This document shows positions 71-24,516 of a stretch of DNA of 64,000 nt, piece by piece. Each line of letters starts with the position of its first letter. Position 1 is the stretch's first letter. The notes under the pieces were generated by a model that had not been told where the DNA came from, did no database searches, and saw only the letters and a program-made list of their open reading frames with translations. A program made the translations under genes and the position numbers. The stretch is from Collinsella tanakaei (lineage in GTDB: Bacteria > Actinomycetota > Coriobacteriia > Coriobacteriales > Coriobacteriaceae), in the NCBI RefSeq assembly GCF_030373545.1, contig NZ_JAUDCO010000005.1, positions 124,001 to 188,000 on the forward strand, read 5' to 3'.

Positions 71-1668
71 GAGCGTCCTTACTCTTATATGCTCGTACCA
101 TCCGGCGCATGAAGCCGAGCATGGTAATCGCGCGTCTTCGCAGGCGCCGCCGCGTATCCAAGGATGTTGTTAAACGGATAGGTGCTTTTCGGCATTTGGA
201 TATTGCTGTTCCGCAGCTCGATCTCGAAGAGGGATATGTGTCCCGTTTCGATGTCGACGCTCTGCTGCGAGATGAATTCCTACTGATCAATGAGCGTCAT
301 CATGTTGACCTCGAGGTCTGGAACGTTTCCGATGCATCGCATCTCTGGAACTTCAACCTTCACTACTTTGAGTATTGTGTTGCCCTCGCCGCTGCTTGGC
401 GGCGTGCCGGCGATGCTAAGTATCTCGAGTGCTTTAAGAGGCTTGTGCGGTCCTGGCTGCACGCATGTCCTTATGCCGATGGGGATGCGTGGCATCCGTA
501 TACTATTTCGCTTCGCCTTGTAAACTGGCTGATCTGCATCGATTTGTTCGGTTCTGCGCTGAGCGAAGACGATGCCTTTATGGATGCCCTTACAAAGAGC
601 ATGTATGTTCAGTACAGGCATCTACTAATCAATCAGGAGACGCATCTTCGCGCTAACCATTACTGGGAGAATCTTAAAACGTTGCTCATCTGTGCGGCGG
701 CATTCGATGAGCAAGATGTGTATCGACGCGTTATGCGTGGTTTTGAGCGTCAACTCGACGAGCAGATTCTTCCAGATGGGGTTCACTTCGAGCGAAGCCT
801 TATGTACCACAAGCTCGTACTTGAGGGCATGCTGCGCGTTTGGCTTACTGCGAAACAGACTGGGTACCCGCTACCGAAGATCTTTTTGCCAAAGGTCCAG
901 GCAATGCTCAATGCCATGGCATCTTTGGAAAAGGGGATGGGGAAAACCCCGTTTTTCAACGACGCGGCAGATGGCGTTGCGAAGACCTGCGGTCAGCTTG
1001 TCGTTGCTTGCAAACGTCTCCTTGGGATGAATGCAGATGATTCAATAACTGCCTTTCCTAATGCGGGCTACTACAAGCTGTACGATGGCGATATTGCCGT
1101 GATGTTTGACGCGGGGGAGCCGGGTCCGAGTTACATGCTTGGCCATGCACACTGCGACTGCCTATCCTTTGAGCTTTCCTACAAAGGCGAACCGGTGATT
1201 GTCAACTCGGGTACCTATGCGTACCAAAGCGAGCTGCGCCCTTACTTTCGCTCGACCGCTGCGCATAACACTGTGGTGGTTGACGGTGAAGAGCAGATGG
1301 AGTGCTGGGGAGAGCATCGGGTGGGAACGGCATACCGACATTCGAGCGCTAGGCGGCTCTCAGACAATTGCTTGATTGGCGAGATGGTTCTTCATGATGG
1401 CAAGAGTATACGCAGGAGCATATCTCTAAAAGAAGACGTGGTTACGATATCGGACGCTCTGCTCAGCGATGGGAAAGACGCCGTTACTGTCCTGTTCCAC
1501 CTCTTTCCGGGCATCAACACCGTTGCCCTTTCAACTGATGGTGACCTGTCGACGGATGAATACCTCTATTCACCAGAATTTGGAGTTCTAAACAGTGCGC
1601 AGGTTTTCAAGGTTGCCGCGTTTGGAACCGTTACATCAAGGCTTGAGATCGGGCAGCTTGATGAATAG
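67..1668 (+). CDS. Heparinase II/III family protein
   Basis: A 533-residue protein resembling the alginate lyase/heparinase II/III superfamily: an N-terminal alpha/alpha toroid (about residues 90-330, rich in W, Y and H, with LWNFNLHYFEY and NHYWENLKT) and a C-terminal beta-sandwich. The latter contains GHAHCDCLSFEL and a conserved-type RSTAAHNTVVVDG segment typical of the family. Such proteins are often encoded in exopolysaccharide clusters, where they cleave or edit uronic-acid-containing polymer. No clear signal peptide is visible, so export is unproven. The start overlaps the previous stop (ATGA) and the end overlaps the next start by 8 nt. Confidence 0.85.
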   Translation: MRASLLLYARTIRRMKPSMVIARLRRRRRVSKDVVKRIGAFRHLDIAVPQLDLEEGYVSRFDVDALLRDEFLLINERHHVDLEVWNVSDASHLWNFNLHYFEYCVALAAAWRRAGDAKYLECFKRLVRSWLHACPYADGDAWHPYTISLRLVNWLICIDLFGSALSEDDAFMDALTKSMYVQYRHLLINQETHLRANHYWENLKTLLICAAAFDEQDVYRRVMRGFERQLDEQILPDGVHFERSLMYHKLVLEGMLRVWLTAKQTGYPLPKIFLPKVQAMLNAMASLEKGMGKTPFFNDAADGVAKTCGQLVVACKRLLGMNADDSITAFPNAGYYKLYDGDIAVMFDAGEPGPSYMLGHAHCDCLSFELSYKGEPVIVNSGTYAYQSELRPYFRSTAAHNTVVVDGEEQMECWGEHRVGTAYRHSSARRLSDNCLIGEMVLHDGKSIRRSISLKEDVVTISDALLSDGKDAVTVLFHLFPGINTVALSTDGDLSTDEYLYSPEFGVLNSAQVFKVAAFGTVTSRLEIGQLDE

Positions 1669-2656
1669 GTTGGCGTACATTGGTAGCTTCCCTCCGCCAT
1701 ATGGAGGCGTTACCGTGAAAAATTCCCTCTTATTTGACAGCATTTCTTCCAGGATGGGGATTACAAGAGTCGATCTTTCGATGGTGAAGCGCTTTCGGCT
1801 CGTCGATCTTTCTCGTTTCATAAAAGAGATGGCAAGCCCTTCAGGGGGTCTTGTTATCGGTACATCTGATTCGTGGCGCCGTCGAATCACGATGGCTCTT
1901 AACCGGACTAATCGTGGCAAAATGCGTCGGTCTGTCGTGTTCGTAATGGGCGGGTCAAGCTTGGATGATCCACGTTATGCTCATGCGCTTTCGAACTATA
2001 AGGCAGTTTATGTAGAGACGGAAGGCATGAAGCGCAACTACGAAGCCATGGGGCTGCTCAATGTACGCGTTTTTCCAAATTGTAGGAAGCGCCGAGAGGC
2101 AGATATTGTCATCGGTGGTCATCAAGGCAGGCTTTCCTGTGTCTACTTCTCTCTTATCAGTGAGGAAAAAGGTGCCCCGCTGATTCTCGATGTTGCGAGC
2201 ATGCTGCCCAGCGTCGATTTCCATATGTACGGGAGAATCGACCCTGCAATCGAAGATGGCTTCCTGAAGTGTTGCGATGAGCTTGATAACGTGCATTATC
2301 ACGGGGTTTTTGACTCCGTCGAAGGTTATGCCATCGCGGAGCTTTCTCAGTACGACATCCATCTATTCCCTTCGCTATGTCCTAACGAGGGAGTCCCAGG
2401 CGTTCTCGTGGAAACGAAAATGGCAGGCGTGCCGACAATCGCGTCTGATAGGTGTTTCAACGGTGAGCTCGTTCAAGATGGCGAGACGGGATTTGTTCTT
2501 ACCGACATCTCAGCCGAATCATTTGCTTCTGCAATCCGCAAGTTTGATTCCGATAGGCAAATGCTTATGGGCATGAAATACGCCTCGCTGAGGTCTGCTG
2601 AACGGTTTTATATCGAAAAGTACATCGATGACATCGTAAGTACTCTTGCGGACTAA
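1661..2656 (+). CDS. Glycosyltransferase (GT-B fold, family 1/4-like)
   Basis: A 331-residue protein beginning MNRLAYIGSFPPPYGG, the glycine-rich N-terminal loop typical of GT-B glycosyltransferases. The C-terminal half carries FPSLCPNEGVPGVLVETKMAGVP, corresponding to the E-x7-E nucleotide-sugar binding region of GT4 enzymes. I chose the ATG at 1661, which overlaps the upstream stop, rather than longer in-frame starts. It probably adds one sugar to the lipid-linked repeat unit; donor and acceptor cannot be told from sequence. It is followed by about 70 nt and then the wecC-like gene. Confidence 0.8.
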   Translation: MNRLAYIGSFPPPYGGVTVKNSLLFDSISSRMGITRVDLSMVKRFRLVDLSRFIKEMASPSGGLVIGTSDSWRRRITMALNRTNRGKMRRSVVFVMGGSSLDDPRYAHALSNYKAVYVETEGMKRNYEAMGLLNVRVFPNCRKRREADIVIGGHQGRLSCVYFSLISEEKGAPLILDVASMLPSVDFHMYGRIDPAIEDGFLKCCDELDNVHYHGVFDSVEGYAIAELSQYDIHLFPSLCPNEGVPGVLVETKMAGVPTIASDRCFNGELVQDGETGFVLTDISAESFASAIRKFDSDRQMLMGMKYASLRSAERFYIEKYIDDIVSTLAD

Positions 2657-2728
2657 GCATGCGGAAGCTGTTGAATGCTGTGACGACATCACGATCCTAG
2701 ATTAGCTTTGCGATAGTTTGGAGTATTG

Positions 2729-3946
2729 ATGGTTAACGTAATCGGTCTTGGTTATATCGGTCTCCCCACCGCGCTCATGATGGCGTCCCATGGTGTGGAG
2801 GTGGTCGGTACCGACTATAACAAGGAACTCGTCGCCACGCTCAATGCTGGTAAGACGACGTTCAAAGAGGACGGTCTTGACGAGTTATTTGCTTCGGCGG
2901 TGGAAGCCGGCATTGTCTTTACCAGCGAGTACCAGGTCTGTGACACCTATATCGTGAGCGTTCCGACACCTTACGACAAGATTGATAAGAAGATCGATCC
3001 CTCCTACGTGGTTGCAGCATGCAAGACCGTGCTCGACATTGCTCCTCAAGACGCAACGCTCGTCGTTGAGTCGACGATTTCGCCGAATACGATCGACCGC
3101 TTTGTGAGGCCTTTGCTTGAAGAGGCGGGACGTCAGGATATCGCGCTCGTTCATGCTCCCGAGCGCATCATTCCTGGCAACATGGTTTACGAGTTGGTGC
3201 ATAACAATCGCACCATTGGTGCCGATGATGCCGAAGTGGGGAAGCGCGTTGCCTCGCTTTATGCAAGCTTCTGCGAGGGAGAGATTTCGGTTACCGATAT
3301 TCGTACGGCTGAGATGACCAAGGTTGTCGAGAATACGTTTCGTGCCGTGAATATCGCCTTTGCGAACGAGCTTGCGAAAGTTTGTCGCATCGGCGGTATG
3401 GATGTTTACGAGGTCATCCGCATCGCGAATAAGCATCCGCGTGTGAACATCCTGCAGCCCGGGCCTGGTGTCGGTGGACACTGCATTCCTGTCGATCCAT
3501 GGTTCTTGGTGGGTGATTATCCCGAGACGGCGAACTTCATCCGCCTTGCTCTTCAGACAAACTTCTCGATGCCCGAGTATGTACTGCAGCGGGCTTATGG
3601 GGCGATGAAGGAGCACGGCATTACCGATACCGTTAAGGTGGGCATCTACGGTCTCACGTACAAGGAGGACGTCGACGACGTTCGCGAATCTCCGACTCTG
3701 CAGATGCTCGAAGCCCAGGCAGAGCATTTGGGCGGTGCCCAGATGAAGGTCTATGATCCGTGGGTCGAGGCCGATGTGGCCCCGAATCAGGTTCACTCCA
3801 TGGAGGAGTTTCTTGAGGGGCTGGAGATGGTCATCGTGATGGTTGGCCATTCGCAGGTGAAGGGAAAGCCGGAGCTTTTTGGCAATCGGATCCTTATCGA
3901 TCCTCGAAATGTCATGGGCGAGGGCAATAGCGTATATAAGCTGTAG
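2729..3946 (+). CDS. wecC: UDP-N-acetyl-D-mannosaminuronate (UDP-ManNAc) dehydrogenase
   Basis: A 405-residue NAD-dependent nucleotide-sugar dehydrogenase. The N-terminal Rossmann motif is VIGLGYIGLP, followed by VPTPYDK and VVESTISPNT. The catalytic cysteine lies in GPGVGGHCIPVDPWFL, the form seen in WecC-type enzymes rather than UDP-glucose dehydrogenases. KEDVDDVRESP marks the C-terminal domain. It oxidises UDP-ManNAc to UDP-ManNAcA, pairing with the UDP-GlcNAc 2-epimerase encoded at 16.7 kb. The ATG at 2729 follows a TTTGGAG ribosome site; a TTG three bases upstream is less likely. Confidence 0.9.
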   Translation: MVNVIGLGYIGLPTALMMASHGVEVVGTDYNKELVATLNAGKTTFKEDGLDELFASAVEAGIVFTSEYQVCDTYIVSVPTPYDKIDKKIDPSYVVAACKTVLDIAPQDATLVVESTISPNTIDRFVRPLLEEAGRQDIALVHAPERIIPGNMVYELVHNNRTIGADDAEVGKRVASLYASFCEGEISVTDIRTAEMTKVVENTFRAVNIAFANELAKVCRIGGMDVYEVIRIANKHPRVNILQPGPGVGGHCIPVDPWFLVGDYPETANFIRLALQTNFSMPEYVLQRAYGAMKEHGITDTVKVGIYGLTYKEDVDDVRESPTLQMLEAQAEHLGGAQMKVYDPWVEADVAPNQVHSMEEFLEGLEMVIVMVGHSQVKGKPELFGNRILIDPRNVMGEGNSVYKL

Positions 3947-5209: not shown

Positions 5210-6589
5210 ATGACAATGCCATTTAAGGAGTGCTCAAGTGGGGCATCCGCCAGTCGGCTTGCATCGGTTGAGAGTTTTGAGTTTGGCGGTACGGGAAATA
5301 CGGACATCATGCAGCGATTACTGCTCAAGGTGGTTCCAGTCTTTGTTTTCCTTAACCTATTGTTTGGAGACTATTGCGATTATTTCGACCGGATATACAA
5401 TCCGTTTCCCGTTCCATTTGAGTTGTTAGCACCTGTGTTACTGGGGCTAAAGATCGTGATAGCAATTTGCCTGGCGATCTGTCTGACTCGAAGGGGGATG
5501 CGACAGGCGAAGATGCCTGCGTTCCTGATCCTATTCCTATCTTTCGCCGTCGTCCTATCAGTTGTCCATAGCCTGTATCCCGAACGGCTTATCGAGGGAA
5601 GCTATGTAGAGTTTGGTGCTCAGGGAATGGGAAATCAGGGGGTATTGCTGCATCCAAGCAATCTAGTCAATTATGTTTCTAGAAATGTTGATCTTTTAGT
5701 ACTAGTGGCTGCGGGATCAGTTGTTTTCGATAGGGCAAATATGTTGCGTGCTGTTTGCTTAGCTACGTTATTTACGCTGCCCTTCCATCTGATTAACGGG
5801 GCGCTTCAATTCTCGGGATTCTTCATTACAAGTCTGGAAAGCAGCAAGGCGGTTTTCTTTTCTACCTCATCTGAATATGTTTCGATCGGTCAGAGAGTGA
5901 CCGGGCTATTTGTCAGTCCGTTCTATTTTTCCATCTATCTAGCTCTTGTTCAGTATCTTTTATATCTAACTGATTTTAGATATAAGCACTATCTATCAGT
6001 CCTATTGCTTGTTTTCCATGTGATGAGCCTTACAAGAACGGGCATCGTATTATGGTTCGTTGTCGAATGCTTTTGTCTCACGGACTATTGGGAGCAACGG
6101 GATTGGCGATACATAGCGCTGTTCAGCTGTCTGGGAGCAATGATTCTGCTCTTTGTTTTTGCATTCTTTGATGTAAGGACGGGAATATTCCAGCGCCTCT
6201 TCCAGCCCCTCAATGCTGAACAAAACTTTTCTTTTTTATCTCGAACGACCGTTCCGTTCATAAATCTTGGGGAAATGCTGTTCCATGAGCCGCTTCTTCT
6301 GCTATTTGGCGTAGGGAATGTCACAACCATTGGTGCGGACAGCAATTTGGTCTCCAGCCTGTATCAAGAAGGTGCTCTGTATACCATCTCCTATTATGGG
6401 ATGCTGATCGTTATGGCTAGGCGCTGCCCCAAACGTTCAAATCCGATATTAGCGATACTCATTATTTCTGCAGTCCTGTTTTCTGGGAGCAACCAAACCA
6501 TCACCTTTGTAGCATACTTCCTTCTTTCGCTTTTCTTTTACGATGATTGCGAGCAGCCGGGTGTGAGCGTTGCGGCAGCACGGAGATAG
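5210..6589 (+). CDS. Oligosaccharide repeat-unit polymerase (Wzy-like membrane protein)
   Basis: A 459-residue polytopic membrane protein with about ten hydrophobic segments and a larger loop in the second half (about residues 320-390), the usual layout of Wzy/O-antigen-ligase-like proteins. These have little sequence conservation, so the call rests on topology and on placement between glycosyltransferases and a Wzx-type flippase. A hydrophilic N-terminal stretch of about 30 residues precedes the first helix; internal starts such as the ATG at 5310 cannot be excluded. The AT-rich composition matches the adjacent transferases. Expected role: polymerising lipid-linked repeat units on the outer face of the membrane. 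Confidence 0.7.
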   Translation: MTMPFKECSSGASASRLASVESFEFGGTGNTDIMQRLLLKVVPVFVFLNLLFGDYCDYFDRIYNPFPVPFELLAPVLLGLKIVIAICLAICLTRRGMRQAKMPAFLILFLSFAVVLSVVHSLYPERLIEGSYVEFGAQGMGNQGVLLHPSNLVNYVSRNVDLLVLVAAGSVVFDRANMLRAVCLATLFTLPFHLINGALQFSGFFITSLESSKAVFFSTSSEYVSIGQRVTGLFVSPFYFSIYLALVQYLLYLTDFRYKHYLSVLLLVFHVMSLTRTGIVLWFVVECFCLTDYWEQRDWRYIALFSCLGAMILLFVFAFFDVRTGIFQRLFQPLNAEQNFSFLSRTTVPFINLGEMLFHEPLLLLFGVGNVTTIGADSNLVSSLYQEGALYTISYYGMLIVMARRCPKRSNPILAILIISAVLFSGSNQTITFVAYFLLSLFFYDDCEQPGVSVAAARR

Positions 6590-9078: not shown

Positions 9079-10511
9079 ATCGTCGCGCAGCATCGGCTGC
9101 CAAGTGGTCTATTGCCACTGAAGTTCTTGTTAAAGTAGTTTCGCCGATAACGCAGCTTGTCCTCGCACGCATTCTTGCGCCCGAGGCATTCGGTATGGTT
9201 GCCACCGTCACCATGGTAACGAGCTTTGCTGACATGTTCTCTGATTCCGGTTTTCAGAAATATCTAGTCCAACACGAATTTGAAAACAATGATGATCTAT
9301 ACCATAGCGCTGATGTGGCTTTTTGGACTAACATCGGTATTTCTTTCGGTTTGTGGGCGGGTTTCGCTTTGTTTCGCGATGAAATCGCCGCTCTTGTGGG
9401 GAGTCCGGGTCTTGGTTTTCCTATAGCAGTGGCATGTGCATCTCTTCCGCTCACTTCGTTCTCTAGCATACAACTTGCGCTATATCGTCGTCGGCTTGAT
9501 TTCAAGACCATCATGCCTGTTCGTGTGGCGACGGCGTTGGTGCCGTTTATCGTTACCGTGCCACTCGCTCTAGCGGGCGCTGGGTTTTGGTCGCTCATCT
9601 GCGGTACGATTGCGGGTAATGTTGTTACTGCGCTTGCATTAACCGCTTTGTCACCCTGGAAGCCTCGCTCATATTACTCCCGTGCTCTCTTGCAGGAGAT
9701 GTTTGCTTTCAGTGGATGGTCGCTGCTTGAAGCGATAGCAATTTGGGCGACCTCTTGGGCTGGTACATTTGTCGTTGGAAACTTGCTAGACGCTTACCAT
9801 TTAGGGCTATATCGACAGCCTATGACGCTTGTCAATTCGGCTTTTAATTTGATTACGAACGCCACGACACCTGTGCTTTTTTCATCGCTGTCGCGGCTTC
9901 AGGATTCTATGGAGGAGTTTCGATCGTTCTTTTATCGCTTCCAGTTTAACGTTGCCATGTTCGTTCTCCCTCTCGGTTTCGGAATATACTGTTTCAGAGA
10001 TTTCTTAATCGACTTGCTGCTTGGTAGCCAATGGCATGATGCAGCCCTCATGCTTGGATGTTGGGGGCTGTCTACAGGTATTATGGTGGTGTTCGGGCAT
10101 TATTGCAGCGAAGTATTTCGCGCTGTTGGCAAGCCTAGGACGTCTCTGCTGTGCCAGTGCGTTTATATGTGCGCCATGGTTCCGACCTTATATGTTTCTG
10201 CATCCGCTGGTTTTAACCAATTGGTCGTTGCTAATTCTGCGGTTAGGTTTGTGGGCGTATTGGTTGATCAAATCATGGTGGGGCGTATTGCAGATATTCG
10301 ATTCAGCCGGATTCTCTTGGGCGTTCGCACTCCTTTGATTGGGTCGTTCATAATGGGTGCTGTCGGTCTTTTGTTTGTTGCGTGGGCGGGTGGTTCTTGG
10401 CTCTTCAATTCGATGGCGATTATCGCTTGCGTCATTGTTTACGTTTTGGTGACCCTGCTTTTTCCGGAGGGAAGGGCTTTCTTGAAAAAAAACGTACTGG
10501 GTAGGCTATAA
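9063..10511 (+). CDS. Lipopolysaccharide/oligosaccharide flippase (Wzx-like, MATE/MOP superfamily)
   Basis: A 482-residue membrane protein with 12-14 hydrophobic segments. The N-terminus (KWSIATEVLVKVVSPITQLV, then LARILAPEAFGMVATV) is characteristic of the polysaccharide transport proteins WzxC/PST. The ATG at 9063 follows a strong GGGAGGG ribosome site; the longer frame runs into the pseudogene. Expected role: flipping undecaprenyl-linked repeat units across the membrane for the Wzy-type polymerase encoded upstream. Confidence 0.87.
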   Translation: MPNSLNRRAASAAKWSIATEVLVKVVSPITQLVLARILAPEAFGMVATVTMVTSFADMFSDSGFQKYLVQHEFENNDDLYHSADVAFWTNIGISFGLWAGFALFRDEIAALVGSPGLGFPIAVACASLPLTSFSSIQLALYRRRLDFKTIMPVRVATALVPFIVTVPLALAGAGFWSLICGTIAGNVVTALALTALSPWKPRSYYSRALLQEMFAFSGWSLLEAIAIWATSWAGTFVVGNLLDAYHLGLYRQPMTLVNSAFNLITNATTPVLFSSLSRLQDSMEEFRSFFYRFQFNVAMFVLPLGFGIYCFRDFLIDLLLGSQWHDAALMLGCWGLSTGIMVVFGHYCSEVFRAVGKPRTSLLCQCVYMCAMVPTLYVSASAGFNQLVVANSAVRFVGVLVDQIMVGRIADIRFSRILLGVRTPLIGSFIMGAVGLLFVAWAGGSWLFNSMAIIACVIVYVLVTLLFPEGRAFLKKNVLGRL

Positions 10512-10553
10512 CGGCTTTTGTCCTGCGCAACCTAGGCTTTGTGGGAGATATAT

Positions 10554-11057
10554 ATGAACGATGAGGAAGCTGTTGCAATGTATTTTGATGCCCGGGAGGT
10601 TCTTTTGGCATCCGGAAGTGGCTTGATAGCGAGGCTTTCCGCACGCGTGCGAATGAGATGGGTTTTAAATAAATATCCCTGTTGCAGCATTCCTTTGTCT
10701 GTGTCTATCTCTCCGTTTACAGCGCCGCATGGGTTTCACGGTGTCTTTATTTCTTCCGGTGCCTCAGTTGGAGGGAGGTGCGTTATTTTTCAGGATGTAA
10801 CCATCGGTTCCGTAACGACGAATGGAAGCCGTCATCCCGGTGCGCCTCGTATAGGCGATAACTGCGTGATTGGTTCAGGAGCAAGGGTTATCGGCGGCAT
10901 TACTGTTGGAGACGGATGCAGAATTGGTGCTAACTGCGTTGTGTGCGAGGACGTGCCTCCTAATTCGACAGTCGTTCTCGAAAAGCCACGGGTTTTAGTC
11001 CGAAATAATCCGATGCGAAACGGACACTCAAGTTGGAGTGAGTATGAATCTCGGTAA
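10554..11057 (+). CDS. Hexapeptide-repeat acyltransferase (serine acetyltransferase-like)
   Basis: A 167-residue protein whose second half is a left-handed beta-helix of hexapeptide repeats (IFQDVTIGSV, IGDNCVIGSGARVIGG, VGDGCRIGANCVV) with the His of the SRHPGAPRIGD segment in a catalytic-type position. This matches the SAT/WcaF-like acetyltransferases of capsule clusters, which O- or N-acetylate sugars with acetyl-CoA. The ATG at 10554 follows GTGGGAG. It overlaps a small downstream ORF by 14 nt. Confidence 0.8.
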   Translation: MNDEEAVAMYFDAREVLLASGSGLIARLSARVRMRWVLNKYPCCSIPLSVSISPFTAPHGFHGVFISSGASVGGRCVIFQDVTIGSVTTNGSRHPGAPRIGDNCVIGSGARVIGGITVGDGCRIGANCVVCEDVPPNSTVVLEKPRVLVRNNPMRNGHSSWSEYESR

Positions 11058-11190
11058 TCAGTTTGCGCGACGGATAAATCGACTTCTTCGTTTTTCTGTC
11101 GATAAGCCATCGGCCCGCGTTTTTGCAGGTCGAAGTTCAATACTAATGCAATGGATCAATAATGAATTGTTGAAGGGAAGCCATGTATAA
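11044..11190 (+). CDS. Small ORF, 48 aa, unknown
   Basis: An ATG at 11044 preceded by GGAGTGAGT opens a 48-codon frame (MNLGNQFARRINRLLRFSVD...) ending TAA at 11188-11190. It overlaps the acetyltransferase by 14 nt and the epimerase start by 8 nt, a layout typical of coupled operon genes. It is basic, with no recognised domain. It could equally be a remnant of a longer transferase or chance. The good ribosome site is the main support. Confidence 0.35.
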   Translation: MNLGNQFARRINRLLRFSVDKPSARVFAGRSSILMQWINNELLKGSHV

Positions 11191-12208
11191 GAACGTCCTT
11201 GTGACTGGGGCTGCGGGTTTCATCGGAGCGTTTCTGTCACAAAAACTAGCTTGCGAAGGCGTTTGCGTTGTTGGGCTTGATAACTTGAATGCTTACTATG
11301 ACCCCGATATCAAAGAGAATCGGTTGCATATGCTCGGTGAGGCTGATGCGTGTGGACATTTCAAATTTGTTCGAGGCGACCTTACTGATGCTGCTCTCGT
11401 CGAGCGCCTCTTTGCGGAGAACGAGTTTGATGTTGTTGTAAATCTTGCCGCTCAGGCGGGCGTGCGCTACTCGATCGACAACCCCAAGGCGTACATCGAC
11501 TCCAATCTCATCGGCTTCTACAACATTCTCGAAGCATGCCGCCACCATCCGGTGAAGCATCTTGTTTTTGCCTCGTCTTCTTCGGTCTACGGTGGCAACG
11601 AGAAGGTTCCGTTTTCGGAGGCAGATCAGGTAGACCACCCCGTGTCGTTGTACGCTGCTACTAAGAAGGCTAACGAGCTCATGGCCCATGCATACTCCAA
11701 GCTCTACGGCATACCTTGTACGGGTTTGCGCTTCTTCACGGTTTACGGCCCTATGGGCCGTCCTGACATGGCTTATTTCAAGTTTGCCAACACGCTTCGT
11801 GCGGGAGGAACAATCCAGATCTACAACATGGGCGATTGTCGGCGCGACTTTACCTACATAGACGATATCGTCGAGGGCGTCGCGCGCGTCATGGACCGCG
11901 CTCCTGAGGATTGCGGTACGGGCGCGAGGTACAAGGTCTATAACATCGGCAATTCAGAGCCGGTGCAGCTTCTCGAGTTCGTTGATACGCTTCAGCATGT
12001 GCTCGTGGAGGAGGGCATTCTTCCGGAGGACTATAACTTTGACGCCCATAAGGAGCTCGTTCCCATGCAGCCGGGCGATGTGGTGGAGACATACGCTGAC
12101 TGCTCAGTACTTCAGCGAGATTTTGGATACAAGCCTGCTACAAAGCTCGAGGATGGCCTCCGCGCCTTTGCCAAGTGGTATCGGGAGTATTACCTCGCTA
12201 GGCTGTAG
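11183..12208 (+). CDS. UDP-glucuronate 4-epimerase (NAD-dependent epimerase, CapI-like)
   Basis: A 341-residue extended short-chain dehydrogenase. It shows the NAD motif VTGAAGFIGAFLS, DNLNAYYDPDIKENR (a hallmark of UDP-glucuronate 4-epimerases), AAQAGVRYSIDNP, a catalytic YAATKKANE preceded by SSSSVYGG, and RRDFTYIDDIV. It would interconvert UDP-GlcA and UDP-GalA. Its substrate is made by the UDP-glucose dehydrogenase at 15.4 kb. The ATG at 11183 has a GAAGGGAAG ribosome site. Confidence 0.9.
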   Translation: MYKNVLVTGAAGFIGAFLSQKLACEGVCVVGLDNLNAYYDPDIKENRLHMLGEADACGHFKFVRGDLTDAALVERLFAENEFDVVVNLAAQAGVRYSIDNPKAYIDSNLIGFYNILEACRHHPVKHLVFASSSSVYGGNEKVPFSEADQVDHPVSLYAATKKANELMAHAYSKLYGIPCTGLRFFTVYGPMGRPDMAYFKFANTLRAGGTIQIYNMGDCRRDFTYIDDIVEGVARVMDRAPEDCGTGARYKVYNIGNSEPVQLLEFVDTLQHVLVEEGILPEDYNFDAHKELVPMQPGDVVETYADCSVLQRDFGYKPATKLEDGLRAFAKWYREYYLARL

Positions 12209-17799: not shown

Positions 17800-17834
17800 A
17801 AGCCCACGTCTCCGATGGACGTGGGCTTATTCTT
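17800..17834. terminator. Bidirectional intrinsic terminator between wecB and the AbiH-like gene
   Basis: An 11-bp perfect stem (AAGCCCACGTC pairing with GACGTGGGCTT) with a 6-nt loop and T-rich flanks on both strands lies between two convergent genes, overlapping the end of the minus-strand one. Confidence 0.75.
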
Positions 17835-18984
17835 GACTACGACGTCCGTGATCAAGGTGCCACCAGGAATTGCTGTCGGAATCCTTGGAATTCTCCGAAA
17901 GATCTATGCCAAGATCGAAAACCTTAGAGTTCCTAGAAATGGCGATTCGCGACTCAAGGCGCGACCTTATATCGTTGTCGGAAATGCCAGCTCCGTTAAA
18001 GAAGCGAGCAAGTGCGGCGGCGTTCGCCCGTTGATTGTCACGAGGCAGGATGTCCGCATTGTTGCCCCATGCGTTAATCGCGAGGATGCGCTCCTCCTTG
18101 TCACTGTCGAGCCATTCCGCAATTGCCTTCCACCACGTAGCATCTGTTTTGCCCATTGCCATGCCGTAGATGCAAATGATGTCCGATTGAGCGATGAGCT
18201 GCAGCGTCTCGTTTTCAACGAGATCCCCACGTTCCAAGTTGAGGCGTGGCTTCACAATCGTATCGAGCGCCTCGGGGTTATCTCGGTATTCCGGAACAAC
18301 AATTTGCGATGCATCGTCAACGCCGGTGATGATGCCATGGCTATCGGCTAAATTGCCGTGAATATGCAGAACGCTGGAATCCAGTCTGCGCCCAAAGCTG
18401 CTGTATCCGAATGAAACAGAGTGCGAAAACTTGCCTGACTTGGATGCAGCAAGGAGCGCGCGATCGAGCAGTGTGGTGTAGTTGAAATTGACATAGCGTA
18501 TAGACCAATTGTCCTTGGCGTGGGCGGCAAGAACCTTCTGCATCTTTGCGCGCTGATCGCCGCGCATGCCATCTCGCATGCAGTTGATGGCCGAACGGTA
18601 GAATCGCTCTTCAAGCGCTGGCGTGATTTGAAGTGCGTCGATACGCTGGTTGATCTTAGTGATATATACGTGTAAATGGCGCGTGAAGTGCTCAATGGCC
18701 CACGCATACTGCTCAGAGTCGATGCCTGCGTTCGCACAAGCTTCTGCGAGTTTGCTGCCAAGCGCTGTCTCGAAATCGCCCCATGACTCGTAATCACTCG
18801 TGATGGCGGACTGAATGGTCGAGAGAAGTTTTGCCAAAACAGAATTGGGACCATTTTTGAGCGTTTCGGCCGACAGCTCTTTACTGACTTCCTGTAGGTA
18901 GCTATCAATAATGCTAAGCGGTTTTGTTGGGAGTTTGGCTTGCAGGTCAAAACCGTTGCCAACAAGATAAGTGATTCTAAGCAT
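17827..18984 (-). CDS. AbiH-like abortive infection family protein
   Basis: A 385-residue protein beginning MLRITYLVGNGFDLQ, the GNGFDL motif that opens AbiH family proteins. A central YVNFNYTTLLDRAL and HIHGNLAD, then a late IICIYGMAMGKTDATWW, match the family pattern, which resembles a SIR2-like Rossmann core. AbiH was first described in lactococci as an abortive phage resistance protein; its activity is poorly understood. I prefer the ATG at 18984 by homology; an upstream in-frame ATG at 19002 is possible. It is convergent with wecB. Confidence 0.75.
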   Translation of the reverse strand: MLRITYLVGNGFDLQAKLPTKPLSIIDSYLQEVSKELSAETLKNGPNSVLAKLLSTIQSAITSDYESWGDFETALGSKLAEACANAGIDSEQYAWAIEHFTRHLHVYITKINQRIDALQITPALEERFYRSAINCMRDGMRGDQRAKMQKVLAAHAKDNWSIRYVNFNYTTLLDRALLAASKSGKFSHSVSFGYSSFGRRLDSSVLHIHGNLADSHGIITGVDDASQIVVPEYRDNPEALDTIVKPRLNLERGDLVENETLQLIAQSDIICIYGMAMGKTDATWWKAIAEWLDSDKEERILAINAWGNNADILPRDNQRANAAALARFFNGAGISDNDIRSRLESRIAISRNSKVFDLGIDLSENSKDSDSNSWWHLDHGRRSQE

Positions 18985-19002
18985 ACAGACATCACGCTCC
19001 AT

Positions 19003-20929
<1,927 letters not shown>

Positions 20930-21035
20930 AGCATATGTCTCTCTGCGTTTGCTGCGCATGTTGAAAGAGAGGGGAATAGCCGGCCGGCACCGGGTATACT
21001 CGAATCACTATTGAGCGAAGATGGGGAGGGGCGAA

Positions 21036-21548
21036 ATGGTCAAGTCATTTGATGTAGCATATGCTTTCATTATTTGTCATGGCGATCTCGCCTTGACAAA
21101 TCTAAAACTCAACAAGCTGGTTTACTTCGCACAGGTCGAGTCGCTCCGGCAAAGAGGCGTTGAGCTTTTCGACGATACGGTTGAGGCGTGGGAATACGGC
21201 CCTGTCGAGCCTGCGGTCTATCACGAGTTCAAGCGCTTTGGAAAAAGCGTGATTCGCGACTGCGGGCGTGGGGCACAGCTCACTGATGAGGAGATGCAGG
21301 TCGTCGACTATGTTGCCCGGAGCTACGGCACGATGACCGCATTCGATCTCGTCTCCCTGTCCCATCGTGACGGCGGCGCCTGGAGCCGGGTGTTCGATCC
21401 TCATGCCGACCGGATAATTAGCTCGAAGGACATCATCGATTCTGTTGACTTTAAGGGCATCGGCGGGGTATCCGGGACATTCGAGGCCGGAATGAGGGGC
21501 GTGATGCGGGCGATACCGAACGCGCTCAAGATGCTGGAGAACTCGTGA
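21036..21548 (+). CDS. Panacea (DUF4065/SocA-like) antitoxin
   Basis: A 170-residue protein with the Panacea fold signature: LTNLKLNKLVYFAQ (residues about 19-32), EAWEYGPVEPAVYHEFKRFG near 50-70 and a C-terminal helical region. Panacea domains neutralise many unrelated toxins, and SocA was the first member. It overlaps the downstream Doc-like gene by 4 nt (GTGA), the classic antitoxin-first arrangement. The ATG at 21036 follows GGGGAGGGG; TATACT near 20994 may be the -10. Confidence 0.85.
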   Translation: MVKSFDVAYAFIICHGDLALTNLKLNKLVYFAQVESLRQRGVELFDDTVEAWEYGPVEPAVYHEFKRFGKSVIRDCGRGAQLTDEEMQVVDYVARSYGTMTAFDLVSLSHRDGGAWSRVFDPHADRIISSKDIIDSVDFKGIGGVSGTFEAGMRGVMRAIPNALKMLENS

Positions 21549-22072
21549 CAGAGGAAGAGGCGCGGTCGCTCGGTTGCATCACACTTGGCGGTGAAGACAT
21601 CATCGCCGCCATGGCGGAAACCATCTTCGTCACCCATAAGGTGGTTGCCGGGATGAGCAAGTGCTTCGACCCGCCTTCCAACGCTTCTCAGGAGACGGTG
21701 GATGTTGCTATCGGGAGGATTGCGAGTGCCGTCAATGCCTGTTTCGGCGTAATCTTTGGCGTCGGCCCCAGCGAGCGATACGAAGGAGATCTTTTTCTTC
21801 AGGTCACTTCGTTTTGTGAAATGCTGGCGCGGGACCACATATTCCCCGATGGGAACAAGCGCACCGCTTTGGTCGTATCGCTTGCGATCATGAACACGAA
21901 AGGGGTTGTCGTCGAGCTTCCCGACCCGAGAGATCCATCCAAAAACGAAGCGTACCGATGGATTCAGGATGTTGTTTCGGGAAAAAGGGGGAGGAATGAG
22001 ATGGCCGTCGCCCTGAGAGCGATGGCGTCGTTTGGTTCGTACGAGCTTCGTTCCAATGCTCCGGATGAATAG
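21545..22072 (+). CDS. Doc-like Fic-fold toxin
   Basis: A 175-residue Fic/Doc protein. The catalytic loop at residues 98-106 reads HIFPDGNKR, followed by TALV. Lys in place of the second Gly of canonical Fic (HPFxxGNGR) is the Doc form, whose founder phosphorylates EF-Tu; retention of Gly after Asp is Fic-like. No inhibitory (S/T)xxxE(G/N) motif is evident, consistent with control by a separate antitoxin. The GTG start overlaps the antitoxin stop. A terminator follows 5 nt after the stop. Confidence 0.83.
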   Translation: MTEEEARSLGCITLGGEDIIAAMAETIFVTHKVVAGMSKCFDPPSNASQETVDVAIGRIASAVNACFGVIFGVGPSERYEGDLFLQVTSFCEMLARDHIFPDGNKRTALVVSLAIMNTKGVVVELPDPRDPSKNEAYRWIQDVVSGKRGRNEMAVALRAMASFGSYELRSNAPDE

Positions 22073-22076
22073 ATGT

Positions 22077-22112
22077 ACGGCGAGCCCCGGTTTTACCTGG
22101 GCTCGCCGTTTT
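22077..22112 (+). terminator. Intrinsic terminator after the Panacea-Doc operon
   Basis: An 11-bp stem ACGGCGAGCCC/GGGCTCGCCGT with an 11-nt loop, then TTTT. It directly follows the toxin gene. Confidence 0.8.
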
Positions 22113-22117
22113 GGGAT

Positions 22118-22376
<259 letters not shown>

Positions 22377-22500
22377 GCTGTTTCTGGGAATTCATTCGGC
22401 TTAATTCGACAATAGGCAATGAGTGCCTACCGGTATGAAGGGCCTCCATTCCGCGTTCGCTGTTAAGGGCCTGCTTGCAGGGCGATGCCCTTGACGGTAC

Positions 22501-22554
22501 TTCATGCGCAAAGATGTTGCGCATGAAGTAAAAGCGCAATAATAGTGCGCTTTT
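22501..22554. terminator. Two adjacent hairpins, possible terminators
   Basis: TTCATGCGCAA/TTGCGCATGAA (22501-22527) is followed at once by AAAAGCGC/GCGCTTTT (22530-22554). The second has flanking A and T runs and could stop transcription in both directions. Confidence 0.5.
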
Positions 22555-22799
22555 GCGTGAGGTGCATGCGATGCGAATCGAACGATTCAGGCGTTCTCAG
22601 TACAGTGTGTGTGACCGTCCATCGAACGCCCGCCGCCCCGAGGAATGCCCCGGCAAATAGGGACGCCATAGGGGTATATTCAGCACAAGCAGAAGGTTTA
22701 TACCCCTCCTGTGGATATGCTGAAGTGGGCAACGCCCACATCGAACAGTCGTCTCCCCAAAGGCGGCTGTTCTCCTATGCAGGCATTACCCGCCGTATA

Positions 22800-22880
22800 T
22801 TAGCCGATTACGAGAATCAGAATAACGGCGAACGCGAGAAGCGTTGCTGCTGCAAGAAGCAGCGCGGTGAGCCTGGCCAT
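22800..22880 (-). CDS. 26-aa hydrophobic peptide under an SOS-type promoter (TisB-like by analogy)
   Basis: On the minus strand an ATG at 22880, with AGGAGGG six bases upstream, opens a 26-codon frame. It encodes MARLTALLLAAATLLAFAVI then LILVIG and stops at TAA. Residues 5-26 form one uninterrupted transmembrane helix with a single Arg near the N-terminus. Size and layout match type I toxin peptides and other small membrane proteins; no homology can be claimed. A LexA-like box lies about 75 bp upstream (22954-22967). It is below usual gene-finder length limits. Alternative: a regulated small membrane protein that is not toxic. Confidence 0.6.
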   Translation of the reverse strand: MARLTALLLAAATLLAFAVILILVIG

Positions 22881-22953
22881 GAGATCCCTCCTGTTCTCTC
22901 TGTTGGACTCGGAGGGCACCGCCCGCTCGCTAGAGATATCGTAGCATAGTATA

Positions 22954-22967
22954 GGAACATATGTTCG
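22954..22967 (-). promoter_or_regulatory. LexA/SOS box
   Basis: The minus strand reads TCGAACATATGTTCCT across the site, matching the actinobacterial/Gram-positive box CGAAC-N4-GTTCG at 14 of the 16 positions of the mycobacterial form. TATACT (22953-22948) and TATGCT lie immediately downstream, so LexA bound here would cover the core promoter of the 26-aa peptide gene. Confidence 0.7.
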
Positions 22968-23022
22968 ATATAGAATCATCAGAAATGATCCTCTTTCTTG
23001 CGTAGGAAGCTTCGTTCAGGTT

Positions 23023-24069
23023 CTACTGCTTTCGTCTATATCGCGTTGCCCGGGCTGCTCCTAGTTTTTCGATATAGTCTTCTATCTGCAGCTTCAGTAA
23101 AACGCGTTCTACGGTTTTCTGGCTTAATGTCGGGTTTGCGTCCATGATGTCTCGCTTGCTCGCCCCGCCGATCAAGGAGTCAAAGTAGCTCTTGAGGACA
23201 TCTTCGCTCGAGGTGCCGGACAGGAGGGCGGAGGCTCTTTCGTCCAGCGTTTTGTAGCAAGCTTCAATTACTCCGAGCATATAGGTTACAAACGGCGCAT
23301 AGTCGTTCAGTCCGTCCACCCAGCCAGCTGAGCTCGCACGAAGCGCTTCGTAGTACGTTCGTTTCGTTCTCTCAATTTCCGCTTCAATGGACACGTATTT
23401 TCCGACTGTATAGCCGTTGCGATAAAGCAAGAGAAGGGTTATGAGTCGGCTCATTCTGCCGTTTCCATCGTTGAAGGGATGGATGCTCACGAAGTCAAAG
23501 ACGAAAACAAGGCTTATGAGCAGGGGGTCATGCACACCGCTTTCGATTTCGCGGTTATATTCCTCACAGATCCGTTGCATGGCATCGGGCGCCAACGCGG
23601 CTGGCGTCGGTTTGAATCGGGTGACAAGCTCACCGGAAGGCAGCCTTTCCGCAATCGTGTTGTCGGCATCTTTCCACTTGCCAGCAAATGAAGTGTCAAG
23701 ATAACGATAGAGGTCTCGATGAAGCTGGAGTATGACTCCAGGGGTCACGGGTATGTCATCGTGTCGTTCGTGGATCATATCGAGCACAAAGCGATATCCG
23801 GCGATTTCGCGCTCATTGCGGTTTCTGGGCTCAGCATCTTGTTCTACGAGCTCGCGAAGGCGCTTGTCGGAGGTCGAAATGTTCTCGATGCGATTGGACG
23901 CACCCGTACTTTGGATTTTTGCCACTTCGCAGAGCTTGTTGAAGACATCGGGTTTTGTGGCGGTATAAAGCGATTGCCGTCCCTTATGCTCGCGCACGCC
24001 GCCCAACGCGGATACGATTTCCGGTTTCATGAGACCGTTGAGTTTTGTGCGGTAGTCGAGCGGAATCAT
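23023..24069 (-). CDS. Fic family protein, class II (self-inhibited)
   Basis: A 348-residue Fic protein with the canonical HPFNDGNGR loop (His197), hence a likely AMP-transferase. The N-terminal inhibitory motif SNRIEN (residues 58-63) fits (S/T)xxxE(G/N), so activity should be autoinhibited. A C-terminal winged-helix-like segment (SLIGGASKRDIMDANPTLSQ) may bind DNA, as in many Fic-HTH proteins. The ATG at 24069 has GGAG 7 nt upstream. A dyad operator covers the promoter. Its target protein is unknown. Confidence 0.87.
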   Translation of the reverse strand: MIPLDYRTKLNGLMKPEIVSALGGVREHKGRQSLYTATKPDVFNKLCEVAKIQSTGASNRIENISTSDKRLRELVEQDAEPRNRNEREIAGYRFVLDMIHERHDDIPVTPGVILQLHRDLYRYLDTSFAGKWKDADNTIAERLPSGELVTRFKPTPAALAPDAMQRICEEYNREIESGVHDPLLISLVFVFDFVSIHPFNDGNGRMSRLITLLLLYRNGYTVGKYVSIEAEIERTKRTYYEALRASSAGWVDGLNDYAPFVTYMLGVIEACYKTLDERASALLSGTSSEDVLKSYFDSLIGGASKRDIMDANPTLSQKTVERVLLKLQIEDYIEKLGAARATRYRRKQ

Positions 24070-24086
24070 GGACGTCTCCAAGGTAT

Positions 24087-24114
24087 CTTAGTCATTTGCC
24101 GAATAATGACTAAG
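24087..24114. promoter_or_regulatory. Dyad operator before the Fic gene
   Basis: CTTAGTCAT and ATGACTAAG form a perfect 9-bp inverted repeat with a 10-nt spacer, ending 18 bases upstream of the Fic start codon. The centre-to-centre spacing suits a dimeric repressor; the Fic protein's own C-terminal HTH is a candidate. Confidence 0.6.
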
Positions 24115-24516
24115 ATGCTATCAAAGTGACTAGGATACGCAAGTAATTGCGATGGCTGCATGATGGAACAAGCAGTGCGCGCATTCGATAGGACGGTGCC
24201 TTAACGGCTGCTGCAACGAGAAGGTCTCGATGCTTTTCAGGCAGATGTCCTGGCATGGCTTTTCGATCGGTGCATATGCGCTATCATCCCAATACAACGA
24301 AAAACGGCTTGCCGTTTTGCAAAGGGGGGTCTCTCAAAGAGGGAAACCCCTTATTTTTTGATTGTCTGCGCGCCGCCCCCCAATTGCACGGATACTGTCC
24401 CTTTTTGATGCCCTGCGCCCCTAGAAGGTACAATAGTGCTCGCCGGCTGGCGCAGACCAGCCCGCGGGGGCGGCAGGGGGCCGCCCGGGGTGCAAACTGT
24501 GTCCGAAAGGATTCCC
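24115..24516. other. Intergenic region before glmM
   Basis: About 400 bases. A short + strand frame from 24160 (MMEQAVRAFDRTVP) and a following open stretch could be gene debris but carry no recognisable domain. It also contains AAAACGGCTTGCCGTTTT (24300-24317) and a terminator at 24324-24360. The last 60 bases are very GC-rich; the glmM promoter is probably near 24410-24440 (GGTACAATAG). Confidence 0.5.
24324..24360 (+). terminator. Intrinsic terminator upstream of glmM
   Basis: A GGGG-CTC/GAG-CCCC hairpin is followed by TTATTTTTTG. No gene clearly ends just before it, which suggests either a lost gene or an unannotated RNA. Confidence 0.6.

Follow-up and report, generated by a model that had tools for sequence, protein, structure and literature searches.

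A module of about 310 bp, at about 22660-22970 of the 64,000-nt stretch of Collinsella tanakaei DNA that was analysed (the window), is best read as an SOS-induced type I toxin-antitoxin system, which would combine TisB-like control with par/Fst-like geometry and be related in sequence to neither (probability about 0.8). One end of the module is a 26-codon frame on the minus strand. By sequence comparison, the module was found to be kept in Coriobacteriaceae and Atopobiaceae, often in several copies per genome, and the comparison establishes a conserved box, a predicted leader hairpin, a selected open reading frame (ORF) and a conserved antisense gene together with its coding strand. Two general features of type I systems are present, a short hydrophobic peptide apparently under selection and a conserved RNA gene predicted to be antisense to the toxin mRNA. 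The preliminary description had proposed a LexA-controlled hydrophobic peptide with TisB-like logic and an antitoxin RNA nearby, a proposal supported by the comparison with relatives; it had made the conservation of frame, ribosome site and box in related genomes decisive, and that conservation was found by the comparative tests.

When intact copies were aligned in toxin orientation, a common order of elements was obtained: LexA box, -10, leader, ORF and opposite-strand RNA gene. GAACN4GTTC was present in 15 of the 16 rows of one alignment, the -10 was mostly TG-extended, the leader contained GGGCGGTGCCCTCCGAGTC or a near variant, and the Shine-Dalgarno sequence (SD) was GGAGGG or a near variant. 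The strongly kept stretch 3' of the ORF corresponds to the RNA gene of the other strand: GGGTATACT, a 5' hairpin with CCCUCCUG, a middle hairpin and a terminator hairpin. The toxin and RNA genes lie on opposite strands and are convergent in all 45 leader matches having a small RNA (sRNA) match (lists compared by hand).

Loci were collected with a covariance model of the antitoxin RNA (R1), trained on 19 copies, the window copy among them, which match R1 by construction. Of 94 matches, 82 were carried on and 12 were dropped (each scoring under 31 bits, most of them short hits on the terminator in the other strand); counts out of 70 loci refer to those of the 82 with at least 40 bits. Because the module copies are mutually related, counts are not numbers of independent events.

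Putative toxin gene, promoter and leader

The toxin gene comprises the following features:
22955-22966, minus strand: LexA-type box GAACATATGTTC over the toxin promoter (window match, conserved position, same core before recA and lexA)
22938-22946, minus strand: TGC TACGAT, an extended -10 in the toxin promoter (placed by visual alignment to the TGnTATACT-like hexamers that relatives have)
22881-22931, minus strand: toxin mRNA leader with predicted SD-sequestering hairpin (minimum-energy fold)
22911-22916, minus strand: anti-SD arm CCCTCC of the leader, predicted to pair with GGAGGG at 22886-22891
22886-22894, minus strand: SD ACAGGAGGG, which is at the same time a copy of a 9-nt direct repeat (window sequence, complement to the sRNA 5' region)
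22800-22880, minus strand: toxin ORF, 26 aa, one hydrophobic helix (frame, alignment, pN/pS)
22530-22554, minus strand: possible toxin mRNA terminator, beyond the antitoxin gene (candidate in the window copy)

On the plus strand, the box was located at 22953-22968 (AGGAACATATGTTCGA); as described previously, it matches 14 of the 16 positions of the mycobacterial LexA box, taken as the palindrome TCGAACATATGTTCGA. It is the only match with three or fewer mismatches in the 64 kb (0.24 expected), and at least one such match occurred in 22 of 100 shuffles; judged from the 64 kb only, the box therefore barely exceeds chance, and the comparative data decide. The toxin promoter is no part of the sRNA model, so a search of the 51-nt stretch where the box was expected is independent of that model. 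Between -215 and -165 relative to the sRNA gene, 42 of 70 sRNA loci contained GAACN4GTTC with no more than one mismatch (24 exact), compared with 202 of 10361 control windows (1.9%; 35 exact), the controls including true boxes. GAACN4GTTC recurs at equal distance in relatives. In the same genome, recA is preceded by CGAACAGCTGTTCG about 40 nt before its ATG, and lexA by two exact box cores and a third with one mismatch. Judged by its position before recA and lexA, GAACN4GTTC is the LexA box of this organism, to which LexA would bind. Six of the 46 ORF loci were without the box. The other exact GAACN4GTTC of the window, at 6243, lies inside a coding frame and was taken as chance.

The promoter had been assigned earlier to a TATACT overlapping the box; the -10 that aligns with those of relatives (by eye) is instead TACGAT with an upstream TG, at 22938-22946, and toxin transcription would start at about 22931. 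A sigma-70 scan returned no promoter in 22000-24400 (1.6 expected in shuffles), and the promoter claims therefore rest on alignment, the -35 elements and start sites being putative.

In the predicted minimum-energy folds, the SD was at least half paired in 45 of 45 folded leaders (of 49 in all, 4 that lack the leader motif were left out). Its partner was the leader's own CCCUCC arm or an equivalent in nearly all of them, L101 being an exception. The leader of the window copy folds at -27.8 kcal/mol (z -1.5; 15 of 200 shuffles fold equally well). Covariation in the leader helix was weak because the helix hardly varies.

The 26-codon minus-strand frame of the preliminary description was confirmed: it runs from ATG at 22880 to TAA at 22800 and encodes MARLTALLLAAATLLAFAVILILVIG, with AGGAGGG 5 nt before the ATG. 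For the other loci, an ORF was called by a criterion of our own (start codon, SD-like site, 18-40 aa, hydrophobic). Such an ORF was present at 46 of 70 sRNA loci, whereas among 4069 random sites only 9 had one (0.2%); one of the 46, L121, looks like a remnant (by eye). In the alignment of 39 of the 46 distinct peptides (near-copies, remnants, the 33-aa peptide of L083 and the distant L113 were left out), the pattern MxKLTxLLLAAA was observed, with lengths of 25-29 aa. The pN/pS ratio was 0.42 (14 disjoint pairs of copies; Fisher p 1e-7), from which the ORF is judged to be under purifying selection; SD and start codon were preserved in the alignment of copies.

The Pfam and NCBIfam libraries contain TisB or Fst models. 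No toxin family (Pfam, NCBIfam) was matched at E<=1 by the 39 scanned peptides of the 46, in scans whose sensitivity is limited by the shortness of the peptides, and no match of these 39 to Pfam, NCBIfam or PHROG was convincing (best E 0.12, 0.061 and 0.022).

Distribution, copy number and loss

A DNA search of 58 genomes gave matches in 13, the window's own genome included, all from one genus; several copies were present in some genomes and two in the window's own. A 27-bp match in genome G021 was rejected as a copy, its place not being that of the module, and a weak copy elsewhere in G021 was found later by the RNA model. With R1 at E<=0.1, 17 of the 43 genus genomes gave matches; a search with the 26-aa peptide alone reached fewer (10 of 43 at E<=10). 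Across the order, R1 matched 55 of 395 genomes at E<=0.01, weak matches included; the strong ones fell in two families (f1 and f5), and weak matches in families f2 and f7 were taken as chance. The leader model R2 gave 46 matches in 34 of the 395 genomes of the order. An sRNA match adjoined 45 of the 46 (lists compared by hand), a figure biased by the training of R2, whose loci had been located by means of the sRNA; the lone exception, L182, has a broken ORF.

Searches of 245 class genomes with R1 (E<=1e-3) and of 396 phylum genomes with R2 (E<=0.01) gave no matches outside families f1 and f5, both searches having stricter filters by which weak matches are lost. A scan of 84,980 species genomes for the exact pattern found 22 loci, all in Coriobacteriia or subgroups of it, labelled Collinsella, Enorma, Olsenella, Coriobacteriaceae and Atopobiaceae. 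A phage or plasmid origin was considered and rejected: no match was found in viral contigs (exact pattern), phages or plasmids.

Neither ORF nor box was present at 22 of 70 sRNA loci. Fifteen of the 22 score at least 60 bits; the other 7, at 40-53 bits, may be degenerate or false. By this comparison, the antitoxin has been kept where the toxin is gone, which indicates an asymmetric loss. Antitoxin RNA copies were also found in clusters: L080 (3001, 6635, 7062, 7311), L083 (3001, 3219) and L078 (3001, 6741, 7344). These clustered copies, some degenerate and toxin-less, suggest repeated duplication and decay.

The same pattern bears on the idea of an SOS-induced division inhibitor of the SidA or YneA kind, whose peptide would block septum synthesis via the divisome as a normal checkpoint and whose antisense RNA would only tune it. 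A checkpoint gene should be single-copy and steady, whereas the module is patchy (17 of 43 genus genomes by sRNA, E<=0.1), multi-copy in some genomes, and has lost its toxin at loci where the RNA stays. We therefore regard a division inhibitor as unlikely, even though the LexA box and the single-helix peptide would suit it and Caulobacter SidA is, according to the available text of PMC4211646, a 29-aa SOS-induced inner-membrane division inhibitor.

Candidate antitoxin RNA gene and its predicted contacts with the toxin mRNA

The candidate antitoxin is a convergent plus-strand RNA of about 90 nt (about 22686-22776) with three predicted hairpins. Its gene comprises the following features:
22660-22782, plus strand: antitoxin RNA gene as modelled by R1, promoter included (107 bits, E 5.6e-24)
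22675-22680, plus strand: antitoxin -10, TATATT here, most of the 19 aligned copies having TATACT
22689-22712, plus strand: 5' hairpin of the antitoxin RNA, with CCCTCCTGT in its 3' arm (22704-22712), exactly complementary to the SD region
22725-22739, plus strand: middle hairpin of the antitoxin RNA (fold of the window copy)
22743-22772, plus strand: terminator hairpin of the antitoxin RNA (compensatory changes, wobble bias)

In the 19-row alignment of the gene, GGGTAT was invariant and no recognisable -35 was found. A dyad, AGGGGTATA/TATACCCCT (22670-22705), had been suggested to belong to an antitoxin RNA or a structured mRNA; the opposite-strand -10 and the 5' hairpin proved to be conserved, but the dyad as such did not.

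The antitoxin RNA of the window copy folds with a z of -4.0. In the terminator stem, compensatory changes were observed from G-C to A-U in 4 rows and from U-A to C-G in 6 rows; the U-tract is weak in the window copy (UCCUAU) and reads CCCGUUUU in other copies. When covariation in the sRNA model alignment was compared with 500 shuffles, none reached its covariation score or its number of doubly changed cells, two of the five measures were not above shuffles, being reached by 304 and 467 of the 500, and relatedness among rows can lift values over those of shuffles even in a region without structure. No Rfam family reached its gathering score in the window, and the four permissive matches in the region were far below the cut-off.

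The coding strand was assessed from wobble pairs in the terminator stem: G-U on the sRNA strand filled 42 cells, against 3 for A-C (which is G-U on the toxin strand). The cells were counted by stem pattern, 484 in all, corresponding to about 44 of the 55 loci with at least 60 bits, the rest misfitting the pattern. The 19-row alignment agreed (16 G-U cells against 2 A-C), and this excess argues that the stem is kept as an RNA of the plus strand.

It is this preference of 42 to 3, together with the invariant GGGTAT (19 rows) and the persistence of the RNA gene at loci without a toxin, that makes it improbable that the box and peptide are real while the gene on the opposite strand serves chiefly as 3' structure within the toxin mRNA and not as an independent antitoxin; the absence of a clear -35 at the antitoxin promoter and the weak U-tract of some copies would be in keeping with such a structure. 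That the module is a structured RNA, dispersed as a regulatory RNA or a repeat, in which a small ORF occurs by coincidence would fit the 22 of 70 sRNA loci without ORF and box but is very hard to reconcile with a pN/pS of 0.42, a preserved SD and start codon, and ORFs of this kind at 0.2% of random sites.

Contacts of the antitoxin candidate with the toxin mRNA were predicted at two places. At the SD, the longest complement to the sRNA 5' region of the window copy is 9 nt (ACAGGAGGG), a length reached in 0 of 100 shuffles. The antitoxin CCCUCC(U) complements the SD by at least 6 nt in 36 of 46 loci and by only 3-5 nt in 9, including L117:3001 and L131 (4 nt each) and L078:7344 (3 nt). The mean longest complement was 6.1 nt (4.4 in shuffles), single-locus values often being reached by 5-18% of shuffles, and the duplex energies of antitoxin and toxin had a mean z of -1.35 relative to shuffles, with one value of +1.3. 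L101, where the toxin ORF is kept and the sRNA 5' half is degenerate, runs counter to the pattern of antitoxins outlasting their toxins.

The second contact would be a long duplex. A strong toxin-strand terminator was found about 55-60 nt past the modelled antitoxin region at 6 loci of one subgroup, and some candidate terminator of that strand in 14 of 46 loci; in the other 32, the script scan found none past the antitoxin region. With its end at such a terminator, the toxin mRNA would therefore hold the whole complement of the antitoxin. We think that both contacts matter, SD pairing and long duplex, and the long duplex more certainly.

Known systems, proposed mode of action and neighbourhood

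In tisB/istR-1 of E. coli, as outlined in the available parts of PMC4147584 and PMC8309996, a 29-aa hydrophobic peptide is made from a LexA-controlled promoter, the leader blocks translation of the full-length mRNA and the antitoxin is an RNA. The Coriobacteriia module is similar in its short hydrophobic peptide, its LexA-type box at the toxin promoter (at the sequence level), its predicted blocked leader and its RNA antitoxin candidate. In E. coli, however, the two genes are divergent and the pairing of IstR-1 is at a standby site distant from the SD, whereas the antitoxin gene described here is convergent, lies in the 3' part of the toxin mRNA and carries an anti-SD; also, the Pfam/NCBIfam scan of 39 peptides returned no TisB-related peptide at E<=1. 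TisB-like logic with no sequence relation had been anticipated in the preliminary description.

The geometry appears closer to par/Fst than to tisB/istR-1. In par/Fst of the Enterococcus faecalis plasmid pAD1, the promoters converge, direct repeats bring the antitoxin to the initiation site and a 5' stem-loop hides the SD (PMC7472228, available text). The Coriobacteriia module likewise has convergent promoters and an antitoxin that, with the putative start sites and mRNA end, would overlap the 3' part of the toxin mRNA, and its toxin SD is predicted to be sequestered by a 5' stem-loop (all 45 predicted folds, 4 of the 49 leaders having been left out). A possible counterpart of the direct repeats varies among loci: the SD complement is 9 nt long in the window copy and reaches at least 6 nt in 36 of 46 loci, but 9 loci have just 3-5 nt. 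Unlike par/Fst, the 39-peptide alignment lacks the Fst/Ldr signature (tryptophan after the helix, PXXXG, charged C-terminus), tryptophan occurring in three of these peptides, near the N-terminus, and no Fst/Ldr model was matched at E<=1. The module also has a LexA box, 'SOS' being absent from the available text of the par/Fst review (PMC7472228), and as for the terminator, which is shared and bidirectional in par/Fst, the stem favours the sRNA strand and the toxin mRNA of one subgroup appears to end beyond the antitoxin promoter. Because the peptide signatures and, for istR, the gene orientation do not correspond, the module was filed in neither family.

The E. coli pair dinQ/agrB, described in part in PMC4147584 and PMC8309996 as a LexA-regulon membrane peptide of 27 aa together with its RNA antitoxin, is comparable in its short membrane peptide (predicted here), LexA-type control and RNA antitoxin (a candidate here), but belongs to a different phylum, and no toxin family matched the Coriobacteriia peptides. 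Caulobacter SidA (29 aa, SOS-induced) is also a short membrane peptide; an antisense RNA gene and a multi-copy, patchy distribution, as in the Coriobacteriia module, are not mentioned for SidA in the available text of PMC4211646.

In a provisional literature search covering titles and the beginnings of abstracts, with few subscription papers, no type I system was found for Collinsella, Actinobacteria or Actinomycetota, nor, at the same level, for Coriobacteri combined with LexA and SOS. According to the available part of a 2025 paper, no phyla other than Proteobacteria, Firmicutes and Tenericutes were known to have type I systems until that paper added a cyanobacterial case (PMC12390103). The toxin-antitoxin family is apparently new to Coriobacteriia, and a type I family in these gut bacteria would extend the kind to another phylum. 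Since the peptide and gene layout differ from those of the E. coli systems, SOS control of membrane-peptide toxins (tisB and dinQ in E. coli) is suggested to have arisen more than once. The module provides a concrete test for SOS-driven dormancy in Collinsella and Olsenella, and further members can be detected with the two models, of leader and sRNA.

For the preferred reading, an SOS-induced type I system, we infer expression, LexA binding, RNA pairing, toxicity and a physiological role as follows. In undamaged cells, the toxin promoter would be occupied by LexA, and a constitutive antisense RNA from the other strand would mop up leaky toxin mRNA. After DNA damage, LexA would be cleaved and the toxin mRNA would outnumber the antitoxin. 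Because the leader hairpin hides the SD, translation would be slow or processing-dependent, leaving time for the antitoxin to pair. The antitoxin gene, nested antisense in the 3' part of the toxin mRNA, would allow a long perfect duplex, probably a substrate of RNase III; the predicted antitoxin 5' hairpin has the same CCCUCC as the anti-SD arm of the leader, so the antitoxin could also occupy the SD. The peptide would insert in the membrane and slow or depolarise the cell during DNA repair.

A more far-reaching version is offered tentatively, the odds being somewhat against it. The module would represent an undescribed type I family, the first in Actinomycetota, with LexA control and par-like convergent geometry. 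The antitoxin 5' hairpin would mimic the anti-SD arm of the leader, so that one CCCUCC module would serve as self-lock and then as antitoxin contact, and orphan antitoxins would act in trans on toxins elsewhere, as an RNA anti-addiction network.

The toxin gene had been placed just downstream of a Fic gene of the same strand. A Fic gene does lie upstream on that strand; around 26 other copies, however, the closest long frames looked varied (by eye), and a fixed partnership with Fic was rejected. A SoFic-like Fic is encoded at 23023-24081 (PADLOC E 3e-35). On the plus strand, 21021-22072 encodes, in this order, a Panacea protein (SocA-like antitoxin) and a Fic/Doc protein, in frames overlapping by 4 bases (Pfam E 4e-21 and 1.2e-5), likely a protein toxin-antitoxin pair. 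This pair is bracketed by a 188-nt direct repeat (95% identical; 20742-20929 and 22189-22376, plus strand) that duplicates the 3' end of a nucleotide-sugar dehydratase gene, as if the pair had arrived by insertion or recombination at the end of that gene. An AbiH abortive-infection protein is encoded at 17827-19032 on the minus strand (Pfam E 4.5e-27; PADLOC AbiH only E 0.006). AbiH, the Panacea-Fic pair, the SoFic-like Fic and the type I module make a small defence and toxin-antitoxin cluster. Elsewhere, two separate module copies, in L117 (near 9775-11241) and L072 (near 1553-3019), adjoin a gene with a similar N-terminus, EAK.CA..LSKDVWE, which may be Schlafen/AlbA-like.
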